IMG/VR virus record: IMGVR_UViG_3300021964_000010
Span: 1-31,725 of that record
Strand: one strand, 5' to 3'
DNA length: 31,725 nucleotides
From: a virus
The notes beneath the pieces are model-generated. The model did not search any database, was not told the DNA's origin, and saw only the letters and a list, made by a program, of their open reading frames with translations. The position numbers were made by a program, and so were the translations under genes. Positions 1 through 31,725 of this stretch are shown piece after piece. How positions within the stretch are numbered: the stretch's first letter is position 1; each line of letters begins with the position of its first letter.

Positions 1-127
1 CAGCCCCCTTCGTCCCTACCGTAGTCGCTTAACTCTCGATTGATGATTCCGTCCGCGTCCCATTCCTTTTGTTCTTCGGCCTCGAACTCACCGCTCTTGA
101 TGTCTTTCCGTAGGTTCTCCATTACCA
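1..127. repeat. 127-bp terminal direct repeat, left copy (circle closure)
   Basis: Bases 1-127 are identical to 31599-31725. A perfect overlap of exactly 127 nt is what de Bruijn assemblers with a largest k-mer of 127 leave when a circular sequence is linearised. I read this as proof of a closed or circularly permuted molecule of 31,598 bp, not as a biological short terminal repeat. The repeat lies inside an open reading frame that continues correctly across the join, which fits that reading. Confidence 0.9.
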
Positions 128-1957: not shown

Positions 1958-2854
1958 TTAGGCTTTTCTGTGCTGGGGGCTGATGATTTTAGGCACCGTG
2001 TGACGCCATCTCACCTGATGATGTATCCTAGGATAGCGACTCATCATAACCGCCACCCGCACGCTACTGGGCTGGTAGATAACCGAGTATATGCTTTTGA
2101 CATAGGTTCCGGAATCTAGGTAGATCTCGGTCATACCACCGGAATTTTTTTGTGTCTGTCGCTGTTGTAGTGCCAGTCGCATACAGGTAAGGAATAGGTC
2201 GCCCCGGGCACCCCAGAAGGTGTAGGCGTTGACATCCTCGTTGACACGACCTATGAACTGGAACGGCCTGTCAGTAAGGCAAACGAAACTATTCATCGCC
2301 TTCCGCTTGGGCTTCTTCCAGATGTCTCCGTGGACACCACCTATGTAGTCTCCGCCCTGTGCCATACAGAGTGTCTTGAATCGGGTCTGTTCTAGGAATC
2401 GCACCATCGCGGCGAACACCGAGTCTAGGTTCCATATCTCACACACCGACCGGCCCGGTATGCCCTCGATGTATTCGTCCCGGTGATTGACCTTGTATCT
2501 GAATTCGGTGTAGTCGTCATCAAGCACCACGAAACTGCTGTAGCCCAGTCGTTCCGCGATACGCCAGCACATATTACGGGCGTATATCACACCGCCCTGT
2601 ATCTCCGAGTCGTGGAAACGGGCACCCCGCTTGCCTGTAAAGTTGTCGCCGGTGTCGGTTATGTCCTTGGCCTCCTCCATACTGAACACATACACCTCGC
2701 CCGGGAATTTGTCCTCGTATCGATCACGCTGTGGATCGGTGTCGTCTATGATGATGCGTATGTCGCCCGTGTATCCGTCCTTGCGCAGTGTCCGTGTTGT
2801 GAACACAGCGTCGGCACGGCCGTGGCTAAGGATGAACGCACAGAACTTACTCAT
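1958..2854 (-). CDS. TET-associated-type glycosyltransferase (TAGT), predicted DNA base glycosyltransferase
   Basis: This 298-residue protein starts at the ATG at 2852-2854, which overlaps the ParB-like gene by eight bases; the frame extends further upstream inside that gene and I reject that start. Features match my knowledge of the phage TAGT family: SHGRAD near residue 10, IIIDDTD at 34-40, YARN at 91-94, a DDDY metal/nucleotide-sugar motif at 112-115, then GRVNEDVN, a conserved GGMTEIYLDSGTYVKS block, and a C-terminal PKIIS. Family members sit in phage DNA-hypermodification clusters and are thought to add a sugar to a hydroxymethylated cytosine. Here the usual TET/JBP partner is not visible. 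The donor sugar and target base are unknown. The family call is by recognition, not by search. Confidence 0.82.
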   Translation of the reverse strand: MSKFCAFILSHGRADAVFTTRTLRKDGYTGDIRIIIDDTDPQRDRYEDKFPGEVYVFSMEEAKDITDTGDNFTGKRGARFHDSEIQGGVIYARNMCWRIAERLGYSSFVVLDDDYTEFRYKVNHRDEYIEGIPGRSVCEIWNLDSVFAAMVRFLEQTRFKTLCMAQGGDYIGGVHGDIWKKPKRKAMNSFVCLTDRPFQFIGRVNEDVNAYTFWGARGDLFLTCMRLALQQRQTQKNSGGMTEIYLDSGTYVKSIYSVIYQPSSVRVAVMMSRYPRIHHQVRWRHTVPKIISPQHRKA

Positions 2855-3602
2855 CCGGATGGTCTTTCTGGAATATCTCCCGTAGCGTGTCCGTGAGTTG
2901 GACATAGCCGTTTTCTATCGCGGTATCGAAGTCGGGGATCACTAAGGCACTGGCCTCCATCAGTCGCTGTGTCTCTGCGTCCGCGTGGCAGTAGTATTCC
3001 GCTATCTGTTCGTAGTCGAACCTGCGATGACGCTGTGCGGCCTGTCTTAGGAACTGCTTGACATCCTCGGCACAGGCACTGGCTTCTATCGCTGTCAGTA
3101 AACGGTCGTGCTGTTGGTTGTCCACCAGTTGTGTGATCGCGGGCCTATTGCCCTTGGGGGTGTAGATGGGTGTGTCCACTTTCGTGGTGTAGTCACGACC
3201 GGTGTTGTCCAGTTCACGCAACTGATCTATCTCTTTTGCGTCGAATCCGGTAAGGTCCGTGTTGCCGGTCTTGGCCAGCACATCATCCAACTCCTGGATC
3301 AACATCTCGTTGTCCCAGTCCGCCAGTTCATTCAATCTGTTGTCCGCTATCCGGTATTTCGCCACTAGTGCGGGATCCACTCCGGTCATCTTGGTGACTG
3401 GCACCCGTTCCATACCCAACCGCTTGGCGGCTTTGAATCTAGTGTGTCCCACCACTATGACATCATCGTCATCCACCACTATGGGTTGCCTGAAGCCGAA
3501 CTTCTGTATGCTCTCGGCCACCTGTGCCACGGCCCCGTCGTTCTTCCTCGGGTTCCGGGCGTAGGGTTTTATCTCTGTGATTGGTCTCTGCGTTACTTCC
3601 AT
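2847..3602 (-). CDS. ParB-like nuclease-domain protein linked to the glycosyltransferase
   Basis: This 251-residue protein has an N-terminal ParB/sulfiredoxin-type domain: PYARNPRKN near residue 14, FGFRQPIVV at 35-43 and VVGHTRFKAAKRLG at 50-63, the last being the GHxR phosphate-binding motif. The C-terminal 90 residues are His- and acid-rich (around FLRQAAQRHRRFDYEQIAEYY and ASALVIPDFDTAIENGYV). I associate such tails with ParB proteins that accompany phage DNA-modification genes. It overlaps the TAGT start by eight bases, so translation is probably coupled. Possible roles are DNA or nucleotide handling during base modification, or a nuclease or CTPase-type switch. A T4-late-like TATAAATA lies 18 nt upstream. 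Confidence 0.85.
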   Translation of the reverse strand: MEVTQRPITEIKPYARNPRKNDGAVAQVAESIQKFGFRQPIVVDDDDVIVVGHTRFKAAKRLGMERVPVTKMTGVDPALVAKYRIADNRLNELADWDNEMLIQELDDVLAKTGNTDLTGFDAKEIDQLRELDNTGRDYTTKVDTPIYTPKGNRPAITQLVDNQQHDRLLTAIEASACAEDVKQFLRQAAQRHRRFDYEQIAEYYCHADAETQRLMEASALVIPDFDTAIENGYVQLTDTLREIFQKDHPDE

Positions 3603-3613
3603 ATGTGTATCTC

Positions 3614-3895
3614 CTAGTCGTATTTATAACCCCGTAGCGCATACCACACGATTTCGCGGCTCAACCACCGCGGACATCTGGGATCGGCCACTAGTAGTAG
3701 TAGGAAGTCCTGGGAGTAAGGCCACTGATCGGCGTCGATGTAGTCCCAGTCCGCATCGCGTCGTCGTTCACGCGGCCTATTCTCGGCCACACCGTTGATG
3801 TTTCTTCTACGCAGTTCGGCCCGGCAGTAATCCTGTATCTCGTGTAGTTCCCGGAAAAGGTTGATGTTGGTGAAGATGTGATCTATTATAGGCAT
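3614..3895 (-). CDS. Hypothetical protein upstream of ParB-like gene
   Basis: This 93-residue protein is rich in Arg and aromatic residues (RRRNINGVAENRPRERRRD, then W and Y clusters and a short hydrophobic FLLLLVAD). No family is recognised. No Shine-Dalgarno precedes the ATG; TATAAC ends two bases upstream, so if expressed it may be leaderless or from a poor site. It is the first gene of the operon with ParB and TAGT, and its last codons contain the TATAAATA octamer at 3621-3628. Confidence 0.6.
   Translation of the reverse strand: MPIIDHIFTNINLFRELHEIQDYCRAELRRRNINGVAENRPRERRRDADWDYIDADQWPYSQDFLLLLVADPRCPRWLSREIVWYALRGYKYD
3621..3628 (-). promoter_or_regulatory. T4-late-like octamer TATAAATA upstream of ParB-like gene
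   Basis: Minus-strand TATAAATA, 18 nt before the ParB-like ATG. It is identical to the T4 late promoter -10 and to the copies at 16016-16023 and 30819-30826. It overlaps the final codons of the upstream gene (YKYD), so coding constraint could also explain it. Confidence 0.45.
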
Positions 3896-3985
3896 TTGTT
3901 ATATCGGGATCGTGGCTGACTCAAGGGATATGCCTAGCCAATGTCAGAAAAAACTGAGCACTTAAGTCAACACCACGGTCCCAGT

Positions 3986-4069
3986 GGAGTGAGTTGTATG
4001 GCTCATAGGACCCAGGATGGATCCGATTTAGTCGAATAGTTTCGCAAGAAGTATCGACCAACTCACTCC
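3986..4069. repeat. Inverted repeat with 11-bp arms
   Basis: GGAGTGAGTTG at 3986-3996 is the exact reverse complement of 4059-4069, with 62 nt between. The core AACTCACTC recurs as a direct copy at 4131-4139. This could be a protein-binding array (origin iterons) or the closing stem of a folded RNA. Confidence 0.7.
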
Positions 4070-4109
4070 GTCAGTATTTACATACGATCATCTAGAACCG
4101 GGGTAGAAA

Positions 4110-4127
4110 AGGTCTTTGACAAGACCT
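4110..4127. repeat. Perfect 7-bp hairpin
   Basis: AGGTCTT at 4110-4116 pairs with AAGACCT at 4121-4127 around a four-base loop. No T-run follows on either strand, so it is not a typical terminator. Confidence 0.65.
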
Positions 4128-4198
4128 AGGAACTCACTCGCGTTCGTTCCTGTGTTTCCTGATAGTAAGGTAGGACTCTTTATGTAGATTGAGCCCAT

Positions 4199-4222
4199 AG
4201 TTCGGCTATTGCTAGCCGAACT
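4199..4222 (-). repeat. Perfect 10-bp hairpin with GCAA tetraloop (minus strand)
   Basis: AGTTCGGCTA at 4199-4208 pairs fully with 4213-4222. Read on the minus strand, the four-base loop is GCAA, a GNRA tetraloop, which favours an RNA transcribed leftwards towards the ParB operon. A second hairpin (4223-4241) abuts it, and a weaker stem lies at 4173-4196. The outer two share a TTTATGT loop sequence. Confidence 0.65.
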
Positions 4223-4310
4223 GAAACTTTATGTGAGTTTCACCCATCTGTAAGTCGCTGTCTGGCCAGGCGGTAGGGCTATACCTGTTTGCTCGTTCTA
4301 TCCTACGCGA

Positions 4311-4346
4311 TCTATCCTAATCCTCTTACAGTAATCTTAGGATAGA
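4311..4346. repeat. Inverted repeat with 10-bp arms and 16-nt loop
   Basis: TCTATCCTAA at 4311-4320 is the exact reverse complement of 4337-4346. The sequence CTATCCTA also occurs directly upstream near 4298-4305. It is possibly an operator or stem in the same structured region. Confidence 0.6.
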
Positions 4347-4482
4347 CTAGTGTTGTATCTTTTTCACAGAGCACTATCTTTTAGTTTTCTTTAAAGTCTC
4401 CTAACGGGATTCACCTGTCGCCTGTTAAGCCGCATTTCCCTGGACTATTGTGAGCCTAAGTTTTGAAGTTTTTATATGAGCC

Positions 4483-4488
4483 TATAAT
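4483..4488 (+). promoter_or_regulatory. Perfect TATAAT -10-like element ahead of the plus-strand gene
   Basis: TATAAT on the plus strand, 120 nt before the plus-strand ATG. The candidate -35 (GTTTTG, 17 bp upstream) is poor. A leader from here would be about 113 nt long. It is weaker evidence than the four TAGAC-type promoters. Confidence 0.35.
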
Positions 4489-4595
4489 ACTATATATCCT
4501 GAAAGGCAAATAGTCTATAGAAAATGTAAATATTTGCGGTGTTTTGCTTTCCTATTGGTCTTACTCCAGTAATCTCCAGCAAAGCACCACCCTAC

Positions 4596-4603
4596 CGTAA
4601 ATA
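4596..4603 (+). promoter_or_regulatory. Late-like octamer CGTAAATA directly ahead of the plus-strand gene
   Basis: CGTAAATA on the plus strand ends five bases before the ATG at 4609. If it works as a -10, transcription would begin at or next to the start codon, giving a leaderless message. A second copy, TGTAAATA, lies at 4525-4532. The gene has no Shine-Dalgarno at normal spacing, which fits. Confidence 0.45.
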
Positions 4604-4608
4604 TTAGG

Positions 4609-5148
4609 ATGTTGATATGGTTTAATAGTCCTAGCATACAGAAGATACTAGATAGCACACCCGCACACACGCTAGAAATAGGTTGTAATCATCTATATAG
4701 ATTGCGTAGGTTAAGCCATTGTGTAGCATACGATCCTAGGACCCGCGACCAAATTATCCAAGATCTCCAAGAACACCAAAACGGTCATTTACCCCAATTC
4801 TTTTGTAGGAATGGCTCCGGCAAAGATTTTTTTAAAGATGTCATAACACCTAACAGGCTCGCACCCGAAGACAGCGGAACACTGGCGATAGCACTTGCGA
4901 TTTTCTATTTAAAACAGAAGGATATAGGTATAGTAGGCTGTGATTGGCACACCGATGAAACTCGGAGCCTGTTCGATGCTAGATACACGCATAAAAAGAT
5001 CTATCCTAAAGTGACTAACAGCAAACTACAACTGCTTAGGACATATCAGCGCGAACTAGGTGTTAGGTTTTGTTTCTATGGTGAGCGACCGATCTCGAAG
5101 GAATTCGCACACGCAAAGGTCGAAGATCTATCATACAGTAGTTCTTAA
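4609..5148 (+). CDS. DUF115/sialyltransferase-fold-like protein, the only plus-strand gene
   Basis: This 179-residue protein is the only recognisable gene on the plus strand. Residues around GTLAIALAIFYLKQKDIGIVGCDWH resemble the signature of DUF115 and sialyltransferase-like proteins (a Ser/Thr-Gly, a hydrophobic helix, then a strand ending G-x-D). The following DARYTHKK and late GERPISKEFAHAK look like conserved blocks I associate with marine phage homologues. Such proteins may transfer or modify sugars on surface polymers. No signal peptide or membrane segment is seen. It converges on the end of the tail tip gene and is probably leaderless. The family call is from pattern only; an unrelated nucleotide-sugar fold is possible. 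Confidence 0.6.
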   Translation: MLIWFNSPSIQKILDSTPAHTLEIGCNHLYRLRRLSHCVAYDPRTRDQIIQDLQEHQNGHLPQFFCRNGSGKDFFKDVITPNRLAPEDSGTLAIALAIFYLKQKDIGIVGCDWHTDETRSLFDARYTHKKIYPKVTNSKLQLLRTYQRELGVRFCFYGERPISKEFAHAKVEDLSYSSS

Positions 5149-5270: not shown

Positions 5271-7670
5271 CTAACTGACCGTGTGTGGACTGGCGTTGGC
5301 GTAATCGCTTCTTCTGTTAAGTTCGTTCCTAGCCGCAACTCTGACATTGTATTGTTCGCCTGAAGCGACCGGATCTATGAAAAATTCTGTATCGTTGGTT
5401 ATACCCGCTGTGATGTAATCTGTGTCTGACACTAACTTGTATTGGACGATGTATTCCTTTATGAAAGGATCTGTTGTCGCAGTCCAGGTCACATCTAATC
5501 GTGCCTCCGCCACATAACCGGAACTGGTTGTTGTCGAACTCGTAACGCTCACATTGGTAGGTGCCGGAACTAATAGCGGATCCGGTAGGTTTAATGTTGG
5601 CCTCGTTATGTCGGCCGATTTAGCATTGATCGTGTATACCGTAGGTTGATGTTCGAAACCTGTGACCTGTATGTCACCTTCCGCGTTAAGCCGAATGTCC
5701 GTTATCCTGAACACACCGTCTAGGCCTATAGTGTTAGAAACTACCCTACAAAGATCGCCCACACTTATGTTACTGCTGGCAATAGTAGTAGCAAATTGTA
5801 TCTGTTTAGCATTCCTAGACCTCTTAACGAATACCTCGGCATACTGGAGTGCCTGTTCCCTGTTCGCCACGGTAGGTAGACTCAAGGTAGTCTCGAATCT
5901 CTGATTGTTGTCCTCTGAAAGGAAAAAAGTATCATCCGCACTGCCGTCATCCGGATAGATCACTTCGTTAGGTTGGTAGTCAGCATCCGGGTCTACATAT
6001 GTGATCCTACATCTATTGAATTTTGTTTCTTTGTTGTCACCAACCAATCTTAGTCCGCCTACTATGTTGTCGTCGTTGGCCGTAAACTCCACAGGTGGAT
6101 CACTAGGTATGTTCGCTATGTCGGTATCATCCCCGGCGTTTTCTATCTTCAATCTAAACTTACCTTGTGTGTAAGGCATAATGCCCCTGAAACCCACTAG
6201 CAGTATCTTACAGTTGTTCATAATGCTAGCCGAAGTCTCTACCACGGCATCACAAGTGAACGCCTTACCGGTAGTTGTTGCGGTGTAGTCAACGGTTTGA
6301 TCACACAGCACCGCGGCACGCCTGAAACTTATCCAGTCGAATGCTTCGTTGTCTAGTCCCTTGCCATATCTTGGATTACGCATATAGTCCAGCAACACAT
6401 TTGCCGGGTTGTTGTTGAACGAAACCGTCTCACTGCCATAGGCCACGGTATGGTCCTCATATTCCGGTGTCTTGACTTCTAGGGTCATCTCTGCCGTGCC
6501 GGATATGGTGCCAGAGGCACTACTCACCGTAAGGAATGGCTGGAACTGCCAGGTGCTCGATGTGACTAGATCTGTAATAGTCTTCTCGAAGGTTGCCGTG
6601 ATAGTTCCATCGCTCTGTTTCAATATCTTGTTGCCTGTTTCACCTATAGGCACATCTCCTGGGCGGTAATTCACACCGTCCTTGAATAGTAGGAAACCTA
6701 AATTATATGATCCGTAATTGTTAGTGTTGCTAGATAGCACCGCCCTAAGGGTGACCTTGACTTCTGCGTCGTTCCTAGCGGGAACGAAGTCTATGTCGTT
6801 GTTATTATCGCCACCGAATCTATAACCATTGGCGACCGATATTGGAATATTCTTGTAAGCATAGGTGTCATCGGCCGTTATCGTGAATCCTTCATCATCG
6901 GTATCATCGAAACTACCGTAATCCGTCCTGCTGTAGCCCGACACTAGATCGAATATCTTCCTACCTTTCAGTGTTACCTTGACATTAGGTATACCCCCAC
7001 CATAGGGGTTGTTGTCTGAATCCGCCTGTGACTCGATCTTCTTCCATCTAAACCTCGCGGCTAGGTAGCAAAGACCCCTTAATCTATGATCACTAGTCCA
7101 TCCCGGTGCCTCCTGTAGCAACGAACTCGACACTTGGTCATCCCTGCCATCGAAGAACTGGACTTTTAATCTATTGTCATCTGAGTAAGGCGATTCGCTC
7201 ACCGTGGCCTCTACCCCGTGTGCGAAACTGCTTGGTGTGACTACGATATCATCTATAAGCAGTTGTGTGTAACTATCGCACTGCCCCTCTGACAGCACAT
7301 AGGCCACATAAAGGTATTCATTACCGGAACCGTTAGTCGAAACGAAAACCCTAGAACCGCCAACCATCCTTGTGCCATAAACGATAGGCACATTGCTTAT
7401 ACCCGAATCCTTGTTTAATAGGACACCCTGTATCTGTTCATCTTGTTGTGCGGAAACCTCCGGCACCGTCATATCTATACCGAAAGGTGATGTGAAGATC
7501 TTTACGACCCCTTCGACTAGGCTACCTACGAACTTGAATACCTTGCCAATTATTCCGCCGCCGCCTCCGCCGCCGCCTTTACATTCTGTGATAGGACCTT
7601 CATACTCGTAGGAATCTTCCTCGATTATGTTCATATCCTTATCGTAGACTATCTTCTTGTATATCTTCAT
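5271..7670 (-). CDS. Tail tip protein, lambda J-like (central fibre / host specificity)
   Basis: This 799-residue protein matches the J/TipJ type. A short N-terminal segment (MKIYKKIVYDKDMNIIEE) is followed by a run of eight glycines near residues 33-40 and an amphipathic stretch (IIGKVFKFVGSLVEGVVKIF). Then come the typical SNVPIVYGTRMVGG block near residue 92, beta-rich body domains, and a C-terminal fibronectin type III-like domain from about residue 700 (TNVSVTSS, then LDVTWTATTDPFIKEYIVQYK). It closes the tail tip and probably contacts the receptor. It is the last gene of the tail operon and overlaps the upstream GNAT gene by four bases. No clear terminator is seen in the 122 bp before the convergent gene. 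Confidence 0.85.
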   Translation of the reverse strand: MKIYKKIVYDKDMNIIEEDSYEYEGPITECKGGGGGGGGIIGKVFKFVGSLVEGVVKIFTSPFGIDMTVPEVSAQQDEQIQGVLLNKDSGISNVPIVYGTRMVGGSRVFVSTNGSGNEYLYVAYVLSEGQCDSYTQLLIDDIVVTPSSFAHGVEATVSESPYSDDNRLKVQFFDGRDDQVSSSLLQEAPGWTSDHRLRGLCYLAARFRWKKIESQADSDNNPYGGGIPNVKVTLKGRKIFDLVSGYSRTDYGSFDDTDDEGFTITADDTYAYKNIPISVANGYRFGGDNNNDIDFVPARNDAEVKVTLRAVLSSNTNNYGSYNLGFLLFKDGVNYRPGDVPIGETGNKILKQSDGTITATFEKTITDLVTSSTWQFQPFLTVSSASGTISGTAEMTLEVKTPEYEDHTVAYGSETVSFNNNPANVLLDYMRNPRYGKGLDNEAFDWISFRRAAVLCDQTVDYTATTTGKAFTCDAVVETSASIMNNCKILLVGFRGIMPYTQGKFRLKIENAGDDTDIANIPSDPPVEFTANDDNIVGGLRLVGDNKETKFNRCRITYVDPDADYQPNEVIYPDDGSADDTFFLSEDNNQRFETTLSLPTVANREQALQYAEVFVKRSRNAKQIQFATTIASSNISVGDLCRVVSNTIGLDGVFRITDIRLNAEGDIQVTGFEHQPTVYTINAKSADITRPTLNLPDPLLVPAPTNVSVTSSTTTSSGYVAEARLDVTWTATTDPFIKEYIVQYKLVSDTDYITAGITNDTEFFIDPVASGEQYNVRVAARNELNRRSDYANASPHTVS

Positions 7671-8122
7671 CTTACTAATAATTTCTTGTAGTGTTCGTTA
7701 TATTTCACATAGCCCATCCTATCTAGGAACTTGGCGATACGCTCACCCTCATCATTGAAGGCGAAGTTAAAATGTATTTCTAGGGCACGGTTCTCCTTTG
7801 CCCACTGCTCCGCTACCTTGAATAGTCTAGCCGCTAACATCCCTTTCCTATAGGCCGGCTTTATGTAGTAGAAGTGATCCATAGCGAAGGTGTCGTAGTT
7901 GTATTCGAACTGCTCTAGGCTTACACCTACTAGTCCGACTAGTTCGCCATTATCATCTATCACGAAAGCCCGTCTTGTTGGATGTCCTACCGCATTCTCG
8001 AATTGTATCCTTATCTTCTCCCTATCGTAATTTAGGTAGTTGAATCTCGAAGCCGCGAACTGCTCGTATCCTAGTTCTACTAGTTGCGGCACATCCTCTT
8101 TTGTTATTGGTCTAATAAGCAT
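7667..8122 (-). CDS. GNAT-family N-acetyltransferase
   Basis: This 151-residue protein has the GNAT fold pattern: IRPITKEDVPQLVEL at the start, RAFVIDDNGELVGLVGVS (strands 2-4), then the acetyl-CoA-binding region FYYIKPAYRKGMLAARLFKVAEQWAKE, and a C-terminal FLDRMGYVKYNEHYKKLL. The usual Q/RxxGxG/A loop is replaced by YRKGMLA. Enzymes of this family move an acetyl group from acetyl-CoA to an amine. Its place between hub-like and tail tip genes suggests a virion or host-modification role; the substrate is unknown. It overlaps the preceding GNAT-like gene by 11 bases. Confidence 0.8.
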   Translation of the reverse strand: MLIRPITKEDVPQLVELGYEQFAASRFNYLNYDREKIRIQFENAVGHPTRRAFVIDDNGELVGLVGVSLEQFEYNYDTFAMDHFYYIKPAYRKGMLAARLFKVAEQWAKENRALEIHFNFAFNDEGERIAKFLDRMGYVKYNEHYKKLLVR

Positions 8123-17115: not shown

Positions 17116-17892
17116 TTATTGTTCAACTCTCTGTTTAATAAACTCAGCATAGTCTGGATCCATTTCAATTGATACGCTATCTATGCCGCGTTCTTGACAT
17201 ACCTTTGATACTGTGCCAGTTCCTGCGAAAGGATCAAGCACCTTACCTGTCCTGATGCCAGTGATATTTAAACAATGCCTTACCAATTCCCTTGGAAATA
17301 TAGCAGGATGGCCTTTAGGTCCTTTGACAGCCGCACTGGCCTTACCCATATAACCTGTTGTCTCGTATGGAATGTGCCAGCAGTCTGTGGTTGGCCTGGT
17401 TCGTCTGCCAGTCCTCCTGTAGTTGTCTTCTGCCCATTCTTTCCTATAGGGAACACTACTCATCTCCCTGTCAATTGGTGTGTGGCCAGTGTGTGTGAAA
17501 TGCCAAACCATCTCATAACCACGACACAAATACTTGTTGGTGTTCTGCGTGACTACACTCCTGCCCTTGATGCCTTCACCTGGCATCTCCACCGCCTTTG
17601 CCCATACGATTGGATTCTGTATTGTCATAGGAACCAGTTCTGCCAATCGGTAAGCGAACAAAGGATCTTTCCTGGTTGGTGATATGTTCAGGAAGAAATG
17701 TCCCTGTGGTTTTAGAACCCGCCTGATCTCAATGAACAGGTCACGCATTTTAGTGATGTAGTTTGTATCACGGTCGCGGTATTGATTGTATTGGACTCCA
17801 ATGTTGTAGGGTGGTGATGTGATTACACAATCAATAGATTTGTCATCTATGTCTTGGATTGCTCTGAAGCAGTCATCTACTATTATCTCCAC
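17116..17892 (-). CDS. DNA (N4-cytosine or N6-adenine) methyltransferase
   Basis: This 258-residue protein has catalytic motif IV, TSPPY, at residues 25-29 and the AdoMet-binding motif I, LDPFAGTG, at about 219-226, the order of beta-class (N4/N6) amino-methyltransferases. It transfers methyl groups to the exocyclic amine of A or C in DNA. No restriction endonuclease is adjacent, so it is an orphan enzyme, most likely protecting phage DNA or altering host methylation. It starts at GTG and overlaps the upstream gene by ten bases, inside the packaging/head operon rather than with the ParB-TAGT genes. Confidence 0.92.
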   Translation of the reverse strand: MEIIVDDCFRAIQDIDDKSIDCVITSPPYNIGVQYNQYRDRDTNYITKMRDLFIEIRRVLKPQGHFFLNISPTRKDPLFAYRLAELVPMTIQNPIVWAKAVEMPGEGIKGRSVVTQNTNKYLCRGYEMVWHFTHTGHTPIDREMSSVPYRKEWAEDNYRRTGRRTRPTTDCWHIPYETTGYMGKASAAVKGPKGHPAIFPRELVRHCLNITGIRTGKVLDPFAGTGTVSKVCQERGIDSVSIEMDPDYAEFIKQRVEQ

Positions 17893-26923: not shown

Positions 26924-28345
26924 TTAACTAAAATCCTTCGCACAACTTCCGTAGTAGTTGGTGCCATCGTTGAATATGGTCACTATGTCTATGTCACCGT
27001 TGCCGGTTGATAGTGTAGGAGCACCGCCGGCGAATTTAACCGCGGTGGAAGTGTCTGTTCCGAATGTGGCGGTCCTAGAACCGGTTCCGTCCTGTGTGAT
27101 TATCAGTGTGACTGATTGTCCGGTGCCTAGGTTCGTTATAACGAATCCGGTGTTAGTGCCTAGTGTCACGGTGTGGACCGGTGCTAGTCCGCAATCCACG
27201 GTTATCGTAGATGAACTGGTCAGTGTGTTGATCTCTTCCCTGTATCTCTCCAGTGAGCCCACCCTTGACTTGGCAGTGTCATTGGCTGAATAAAATGCGT
27301 ATTGATTCGTGGCCTCGGTGTCCGTGTCGAAGTAGAAACCGTAGTTGTTGGTCAGGGTCAGTGCCGTGCTGGCATAATCCGAGTGGCCCCCAGCATAGAA
27401 TCCATAGTAGTCCGTCAGGGTCAGGGCACCCGTGGTGCCGTTGTTGTTGTAGTGCTCAACACCTATGCTCTTGAAGGCCATATGGTCAGTGATCGTGATG
27501 GGATCCGAACCAATGCCCACATCAAGATATGAGCCCATACCAGTGGTGCCTGTGATGGTGATCTCCCCTGTGCTGGATGGATAAATGCTTAGACCGTAGT
27601 TCCCACCTGATGCGTTGCCTAGCGTGGCATCAGTGGCTGATGAGTTGTCAATAATTGCCTGTCCCTCGAAGGCCATTGGACCCCTGCTACGATACATTGA
27701 ACTGGTGGATGTTGAACTAGATCCGTTTAGGTCAAGTTTGTTAACTGCTAAATTCCTCCAACGGTCATTGCTGTTGCTACTGTTCTGCGATGCCGTCAAT
27801 TTGTTGTTCTGGATTAGTATATTGGCGTAGTGCCTATTACCATCCCCGACGGTGTCAGACAAATTCTCGAAATACATTATGTTCGCGTTGTTGTATCTGC
27901 TGGAAGTGGTGTAGTTTGAAAAGTCTCCACCCGCACTCTTGATCTGTATCTGTCCAGTGCCGTTGGCCTCTAGGTTGAAGTTGTCGTTTGATCTCGTGGT
28001 TGTGATCTTGTTGTCGTCTATCGTGATCGCGTCGTTGGCTATGCTTGTGGTTGCGGTCATCGCACCAGTGATGGCCAGTGTGCTTCCGTCGAATGTTAGG
28101 TTGGCCTCACCATCCAGTTCCGTGGTTGTTGAACCTATCGAAACGAGTCTGTTCTCTGCCTGGTTGTTGATCGTGGCTCCGCCCGCACTTGTGTTGTAGG
28201 ACAGGCCCGTCCAGGCCGTTGTGCCATCACCCACTTTGAATTTCGTTGTGTCTGTCTCGTATCCCAGTTCACCCGCCGCCAGGGTTGGATTGTTACTCGT
28301 CCAGTCCGCGGCTGTGTCTCGTCTTAATTGTATTTGTGTTGGCAT
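26924..28345 (-). CDS. Tail fibre-like protein A with Mtd N-terminal-like domain
   Basis: This 473-residue protein has an N-terminus (PTQIQLRRDTAADWTSNNP, then LAAGELGYETDTTKFKVGDG) that is the signature of the phage tropism-determinant/hyaluronidase-type N-terminal domain that anchors a fibre to the tail. The body is beta-rich with a SNDNFNLEANGTGQIQIKS unit. The C-terminal 110 residues are duplicated in the neighbouring 501-residue protein. Probably a receptor-binding or sugar-degrading fibre. It is coupled to the upstream gene by TAATG. Confidence 0.82.
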   Translation of the reverse strand: MPTQIQLRRDTAADWTSNNPTLAAGELGYETDTTKFKVGDGTTAWTGLSYNTSAGGATINNQAENRLVSIGSTTTELDGEANLTFDGSTLAITGAMTATTSIANDAITIDDNKITTTRSNDNFNLEANGTGQIQIKSAGGDFSNYTTSSRYNNANIMYFENLSDTVGDGNRHYANILIQNNKLTASQNSSNSNDRWRNLAVNKLDLNGSSSTSTSSMYRSRGPMAFEGQAIIDNSSATDATLGNASGGNYGLSIYPSSTGEITITGTTGMGSYLDVGIGSDPITITDHMAFKSIGVEHYNNNGTTGALTLTDYYGFYAGGHSDYASTALTLTNNYGFYFDTDTEATNQYAFYSANDTAKSRVGSLERYREEINTLTSSSTITVDCGLAPVHTVTLGTNTGFVITNLGTGQSVTLIITQDGTGSRTATFGTDTSTAVKFAGGAPTLSTGNGDIDIVTIFNDGTNYYGSCAKDFS

Positions 28346-31210: not shown

Positions 31211-31725
31211 CTAGATCTTCAGTTCCGATCTAATCTGTTCTATCGATAACCTTTCTAGGTATCGTAATAGTTCCACCTTATTCATCTCTGGTAAGGCTTT
31301 ATGATTACGACTGGCTTGATACTCGGCTATCTGATAGATCGTTAACGCTAGGTCGTCTAGGATAAGACCGTCGTCGTTATCTTCTACCGCCTTCTTAAGG
31401 GTCTGGTTTATCCTAGGCGATACGAAGTATAACTCCGAGCCTAGTCGTATATAGGCCCTAGTGATGGCGGCTACCACATCCGGGGTATCTCCCTTCGGAC
31501 CCTCTGAATCGTAGCCGGGTTGGTAGAGTTCCCCTACCGTCCTATCCATCATATAGAATAGATCGGCTAGACCGTAGCAGTGACCGCCCGGGCCGTTCCA
31601 GCCCCCTTCGTCCCTACCGTAGTCGCTTAACTCTCGATTGATGATTCCGTCCGCGTCCCATTCCTTTTGTTCTTCGGCCTCGAACTCACCGCTCTTGATG
31701 TCTTTCCGTAGGTTCTCCATTACCA
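31211..31725 (-). CDS. Hypothetical protein spanning the circular join, C-terminal part
   Basis: This continues the gene started at 227; bases 31599-31725 repeat 1-127. The joined protein has 204 residues. This part includes GGWNGPGGHCYGLADLFYMM and acidic helices (ISKAV-EDNDDGLILDD type region), ending LERLSIEQIRSELKI. No domain is recognised. The gene is followed after one base by the lipoprotein gene, so the two are probably expressed together from P2. Confidence 0.72.
   Translation of the reverse strand, partial: VMENLRKDIKSGEFEAEEQKEWDADGIINRELSDYGRDEGGWNGPGGHCYGLADLFYMMDRTVGELYQPGYDSEGPKGDTPDVVAAITRAYIRLGSELYFVSPRINQTLKKAVEDNDDGLILDDLALTIYQIAEYQASRNHKALPEMNKVELLRYLERLSIEQIRSELKI
31599..31725. 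repeat. 127-bp terminal direct repeat, right copy (circle closure)
   Basis: Identical to 1-127; see the left copy. Removing one copy gives a 31,598-bp circle in which the spanning reading frame is intact. Confidence 0.9.

Follow-up and report, generated by a model that had tools for sequence, protein, structure and literature searches.

The window, by which we mean the whole 31,725-nt stretch of DNA that was analysed (virus record IMGVR_UViG_3300021964_000010), carries identical ends, positions 1-127 matching positions 31599-31725 exactly, and one ORF runs across the join of the two. Because of these 127-bp ends and the ORF through the join, it is the closed genome, 31,598 bp long, of a small phage, as the first-pass annotation of the sequence had held. 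Its main ORFs, scanned with Pfam and PHROGs, comprise genes for the phage head, the tail and packaging, a gene within the tail module (7667-8122) for a GNAT acetyltransferase, an N6_N4 methylase (17116-17892) and unknowns. This methylase is the sole DNA methylase detected, in agreement with the same annotation. The region 26924-28345 encodes a protein with a major-tropism-determinant N-terminal domain; no reverse transcriptase was found in the genome. The features considered below are as follows.

1..127, no strand: terminal repeat, left copy (exact 127-bp repeat closing the genome)
1958..2854, minus strand: TAGT-family GT-A glycosyltransferase, 298 aa (PF20691, E 6.5e-29; phrog_842, E 2.5e-65; AlphaFold2; PDB fold matches)
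2018..2023, minus strand: HH, residues 278-279, histidine pair of a putative metal site at the C-terminal end (neither varies in 67 sequences)
2234..2242, minus strand: NED, residues 205-207, putative catalytic motif of the xED type (N205 and D207 invariant, E206 in at least 90%)
2513..2521, minus strand: DDD, residues 112-114, DXD-type metal/nucleotide-sugar motif (invariant in 67 sequences)
2847..2854, minus strand: overlap of the ParB stop and the TAGT start, 8 bases, ATGAGTAA (from ORF coordinates)
2847..3602, minus strand: ParB-like partner protein, 251 aa (PF02195, E 1.6e-8; phrog_620, E 1.4e-58; Foldseek matches to ParB/Noc/KorB N-domains)
2850..3194, minus strand: C-terminal partner domain of about 115 residues, exclusive to this TAGT clade (matched by alignment A5 at E 1.9e-52)
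3393..3596, minus strand: ParB_N domain, residues 3-70, a fold common to CTP-dependent ParB clamps (profile and Foldseek)
31599..31725, no strand: terminal repeat, right copy (exact 127-bp repeat closing the genome)

A predicted glycosyltransferase and its ParB-like neighbour

The 298-residue protein scored 101.8 bits against the Pfam TAGT profile, above the curated cut-off of 27.5, which places it inside the family. The blocks by which it had been recognised at first reading are all located in its ORF: SHGRAD at residues 10-15, DDDY at 112-115 and GGMTEIYLDSGTYVKS at 239-254. Only insignificant matches were obtained when sequence relatives were sought in the PDB. The AlphaFold2 model is confident (pLDDT 87, pTM 0.87), and its closest PDB folds by Foldseek are GT-A glycosyltransferases, at a TM of about 0.4-0.47 and ~10% identity, a likeness at the superfamily level. 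The predicted enzyme thus combines a GT-A fold with conserved acidic motifs of the DXD and xED types, the former serving in GT-A enzymes in general to bind metal and nucleotide sugar. Across 67 aligned sequences, 28 columns are invariant, and comparison with an 82%-identical relative gives a dN/dS of ~0.14 for the TAGT and 0.26 for the ParB gene, indicative of purifying selection. Since so many columns are invariant and dN/dS is low, the pair is more than a chance arrangement; it is real, conserved and probably functional.

In the model of the partner, the N-domain resembles ParB, Noc and KorB, and the C-terminal region is helical. Within the ParB_N alignment G52 is invariant and R55 is found in 45 of 48 rows. 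Mean column identity is 51% in the C-terminal ~115 residues versus 36% in the whole protein. The eight-base overlap of the two genes, already noted in the first-pass annotation, lies at 2847-2854 and likely reflects translational coupling. Of the components of a ParABS partition system, ParB_N is present, while Pfam detected neither ParA nor the ParB HTH domain among the window ORFs, and a search of 3600-4700 for parS-like inverted or direct repeats yielded nothing convincing and no clear candidate site. A role in plasmid or chromosome partition was rejected, given the missing ParA and the fact that none of 72,556 plasmids carries the TAGT or the partner domain. Upstream of the operon, 3896-4608 is a long stretch with weak repeats only and no credible gene; it is a possible control region or origin.

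Pairing and distribution of the two genes

The partner gene lies upstream of the TAGT gene in 151 of 155 non-redundant loci, adjacent or overlapping in 142. Three of the four exceptions (L019, L041 and L058) begin at contig ends; the fourth, LL-Ku, is a decayed phage in which ParB is deleted and the TAGT is truncated. When the neighbours of 112 TAGT loci were clustered, ParB was found in 104, followed by terminases; no other enzyme recurred, an oxygenase included, and terminases of several types were the only conserved proteins beside the pair.

In nine of the 151 loci, a gap or a gene separates partner and TAGT. Five of these contain a fusion of a histidine phosphatase and a cytidylyltransferase (L167:4344-5294 and L165:867-1814, also L181, L193 and L203; two of the five sequences were scanned with Pfam), which may make an activated sugar or polyol donor. 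Identification of the inserted gene as a pantoate ligase was rejected, this match being weaker than, and lying inside, the cytidylyltransferase match. Two others have a class I SAM methyltransferase between a stand-alone partner, as defined below, and the TAGT (L026:4701-5468 and L036:1428-2216), and the last two a short gap. Elsewhere TAGT genes are multiplied, with two consecutive copies at two loci and a tandem partner-TAGT-partner-TAGT arrangement at one (L131:5153-6834, L136:641-2331 and L087:5604-8114); such double or tandem enzymes could build a disaccharide.

The association also holds in the reverse direction. Searched alone, the partner domain matched 28 of 50,697 phage records, all of them among the 34 that have a TAGT. 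The six TAGT records without a match were LL-Ku and Ld17, whose TAGT matches are degenerate, and divergent Porphyromonas phages, in which the domain was found by profile. All 80 viral contigs with the domain had a TAGT, adjacent in 75, in a test that partly overlaps the TAGT-contig test, some contigs being common to both scans. TET-linked or T4-like TAGT phages and TET phages lack the domain, which is absent from the whole records of P12024L, Aeh1, phage 65, PTm1, henriette and 1.076.O, and likewise from those of Nigel, Ottawa, MO526, MED4-184 and Tonitrus. A tree separates six TET-linked or T4-like TAGTs from 77 others with support 84/88, although its rooting, chosen for drawing only, is uncertain, and so is the very long branch of P12024L. 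Judged by sequence comparison, the C-terminal partner domain is exclusive to this TAGT clade in the records searched, standing beside the TAGT and absent elsewhere.

The 34 cultured phage records with a TAGT were found by tblastn. They include Lactobacillus phages c5 and jlb1, the haloarchaeal (Haloarcula) virus HHTV-2, Nocardia phage NTR1, Porphyromonas phages, Vibrio phages of 191 kb and Rac-like phages of E. coli and Salmonella. Wherever annotation was inspected, the partner was upstream, often with a terminase next. No discussion of the HHTV-2 pair was found in the halovirus literature searched. A profile scan of viral contigs confirmed at least 553 TAGT relatives, and bacterial genomes of many phyla contributed 26 loci. 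The DNA of the pair is matched in 1572 of 5426 complete E. coli genomes, at least 80% of it being covered in 885, and K-12-type strains such as C600 retain only a ynaK/ydaY remnant. PGAP labels an intact 263-aa Rac ParB (L093:6001-6792) an incomplete ynaK pseudogene, apparently since the K-12 remnant serves as its model.

The N-terminal part of the partner is more variable. It is a ParB_N domain in 125 of the 151 partners and lacks ParB_N in 26, four of which are contig-end cuts; in the remaining 22, here called stand-alone partners, a short tail takes its place. ParB-type loading is therefore not universal. A motif of the form Q..[LMI]F or Q..[LMI].[LMFI] is found in 18 of the 22 distinct tails, with 2.3 expected and 0 of 2000 shuffles as high; the pattern was set after inspection, and the sequences are related, the tails forming only about two motif groups. 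The motif resembles the published beta-clamp-binding consensus QLxLF (PMC4549789), which we take as a lead. In T4, the alpha-glucosyltransferase binds the gp45 sliding clamp (PMC13216743). The ParB_N family itself has homologues in 410 phage records, often annotated as DNA methylases, and precedes TET in MED4-184, Ottawa, Nigel and Tonitrus. Actinobacterial phages show the order ParB - TET - (adenylate-kinase-like P-loop protein) near a terminase (L097:1-4129, L117:3722-8605 and L120:1-3764), their TETs often being annotated as queuine tRNA-ribosyltransferase or oxidoreductase.

Absence of TET and the proposed mechanism

The first-pass annotation had recognised neither a TET/JBP oxygenase nor a C5-methyltransferase in this genome, and our searches agree at profile sensitivity, at which a very divergent oxygenase could be missed. 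TET/JBP was not found by Pfam scans of all main ORFs, the unknown genes among them, or by a PF12851 search of the whole record. When 26 window proteins were aligned by profile with six phage TETs, the best probability was 20%, across 17 residues, while two TETs omitted one at a time as controls scored 95.6% and 98.2%; a hidden TET was rejected at this sensitivity. Likewise absent from the window were the C5-methylase PF00145 and the thymidylate synthase/hydroxymethylase PF00303, and none of the window ORFs scanned had a Pfam match to an alpha- or beta-glucosyltransferase. The association with a TET/JBP oxygenase from which TAGT takes its name is not found for the window pair.

The same holds for its relatives. 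PF12851 had zero matches in 60 TAGT records (13 + 47), Mycobacterium phage Nigel matching as the control, and 191 TAGT locus stretches yielded no match to a TET profile. Among 39 TAGT records, PF00145 occurred in two and PF00303 likewise in two, namely the outgroup Aeh1 and one other. Many of the records are fragments, so that single absences are weak, and the argument rests on the complete cultured genomes c5, LL-Ku, jlb1, HHTV-2 and NTR1 together with the window. Members of this TAGT clade normally lack TET, and the survey rejects the window as an isolated case or an instance of TET loss. Hence, the TET-less ParB-TAGT pair pointed out in the first-pass annotation is real, but it is no peculiarity of this genome and forms the rule in a large clade tied to a dedicated partner.

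We consider it fairly probable that the pair constitutes a TET-independent, DNA-directed glycosyltransferase module in which the partner tethers the TAGT to DNA. The TAGT would act as a metal-dependent GT-A sugar transferase, and the adjacent, translationally coupled protein as its dedicated partner, holding the enzyme with its C-terminal domain and putting the complex on DNA with its N-terminal part. In most phages, the window included, loading would occur via ParB_N, whose fold forms CTP-gated DNA clamps in ParB and Noc; in a minority, the short tail with its clamp-binding-like motif would direct the complex to the replicative sliding clamp. The acceptor would be made or exposed without TET, being a base that is either unmodified or altered in an as yet unrecognised way, and the phage DNA would probably be glycosylated at a late stage of infection, ahead of packaging or in its course. 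The physical complex, the DNA target, the acceptor, the donor sugar, the timing and a purpose in anti-restriction are all points that we infer. More tentatively, the sugar might be attached directly to an ordinary unmodified base, with a partner riding on a ParB-type or replication sliding clamp to give processivity. An objection to the module as we propose it is that a hydroxyl is used by the characterised enzymes of the family (glucosyl-hmC in the case of the T2/T6 TAGT, PMC13216743) and is lacking in unmodified bases.

As to the place of action, the first-pass annotation had also entertained a non-DNA target. DNA is favoured because ParB_N is found elsewhere in the company of DNA methylases and TET, and the clamp-like tails and the clamp binding of the T4 alpha-glucosyltransferase point the same way. 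Glycosylation of a protein, be it the partner, the terminase, the capsid or a DNA-bound protein of the host, with ParB_N or the clamp motif only localising the enzyme, seems unlikely to us for that reason. It would explain why no oxygenase is there to make a base hydroxyl, and why the pair often adjoins a terminase, but nothing else is conserved beside the pair, and the terminases are of several types. The nearest PDB folds include the protein or peptide glycosyltransferases SunS, COLGALT1 and GalNAc-Ts, yet these likenesses are of the superfamily level given above. PGAP names the E. coli TAGT after GREB1, on that naming a eukaryotic relative, which is reported to glycosylate a receptor protein, going by a title cited in PMC9044904.

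A classical route, in which 5hmC or 5hmU comes from the host, from a helper or from a phage enzyme that escaped recognition and TAGT then adds the sugar, would fit the known acceptors of the family, which are hydroxymethyl or glucosyl-hydroxymethyl bases (PMC13216743), as well as the TET adjoining the TAGT in P12024L and the thymidylate-synthase-family gene of Aeh1. We nevertheless hold it to be distinctly unlikely in view of the absence of TET from the 60 TAGT records searched and the rarity of PF00145 and PF00303 in the 39 surveyed; furthermore, the hosts belong to many bacterial phyla and include a haloarchaeon, and a hydroxylase common to them all is implausible. The breadth of hosts also makes unlikely the suggestion of the first-pass annotation that the acceptor is a base premodified by the host. 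Finally, the ParB annotation and the frequent place of the pair just upstream of a terminase might hint at a regulatory or structural role, for example in packaging or partition, with TAGT catalysis lost. Conservation of the DDD, NED and HH motifs under purifying selection, the lack of any match in plasmids and the missing ParA make this very improbable.

If the DNA-directed module that we favour does modify DNA, a widespread modification has gone unseen that would be relevant to anti-restriction, type IV defences and sequencing, given that the clade occupies hundreds of viral contigs, prophages of many bacterial phyla, a haloarchaeal virus and many E. coli Rac prophages. Were the acceptor indeed an unmodified base, phages and prophages would widely modify DNA without a hydroxylation step. 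Carriage by E. coli makes the module directly testable.

Comparison with known systems

To our knowledge, described sugar additions to phage DNA start from a hydroxylated pyrimidine. The TET-linked TAGT of Nonlabens phage P12024L (gp26-gp27) shares PF20691 and the conserved acidic active-site motif with the window protein. In contrast to the window pair, it stands beside TET and a methylase, in a genome without the partner domain, and on a separate branch. Phage ParB-methylase fusions and the ParB-TET-kinase-terminase modules, such as Nigel gp1-gp4, resemble the pair in their ParB_N family, their position near a terminase and the presence of a DNA-modifying enzyme, but that catalytic enzyme is a different one, and the TET-linked modules lack the TAGT-partner domain. 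The literature counts the kinetoplastid base-J glucosyltransferase and GREB1 among the relatives of the TAGT family; their respective acceptors are hmU in DNA and, reportedly, protein.

The T2/T6-type TAGT, with T4-like relatives such as that of Aeh1, has PF20691 and the GT-A fold in common with the window enzyme, for which PHROGs gives the name beta-glucosyl-HMC-alpha-glucosyltransferase. Enzymes of this type act on alpha-glucosyl-hmC (PMC13216743), glucosylated hmC being likewise the substrate of the T6-type TAGT (PMC13390438). Phages of the T2/T6 type possess a hydroxymethylase and an alpha-glucosyltransferase (PMC13216743), neither of which is recognised in the window, and Aeh1 and phage 65 differ from the window clade in lacking the partner domain. 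The PHROGs name was rejected as a description of function, there being no route to hmC in the window without PF00145 and PF00303. It misleads, as does the label 'partition protein', and the TET-free pairing of this clade with its partner explains why.

Neither PMC13216743 nor PMC13390438 mentions ParB in its main text, and the passages of the former that were consulted contain no description of the partner domain. The obligate partner appears to be undescribed in the literature searched, although the pairing of ParB with TAGT may have been mentioned before. PMC13216743, of 2026, reports that 288 of 753 phage genomes have solitary TAGT homologues, which it suggests to be novel transferases. They are TAGTs without an alpha- or beta-glucosyltransferase, as in the clade of the window, and that set almost certainly includes this clade.
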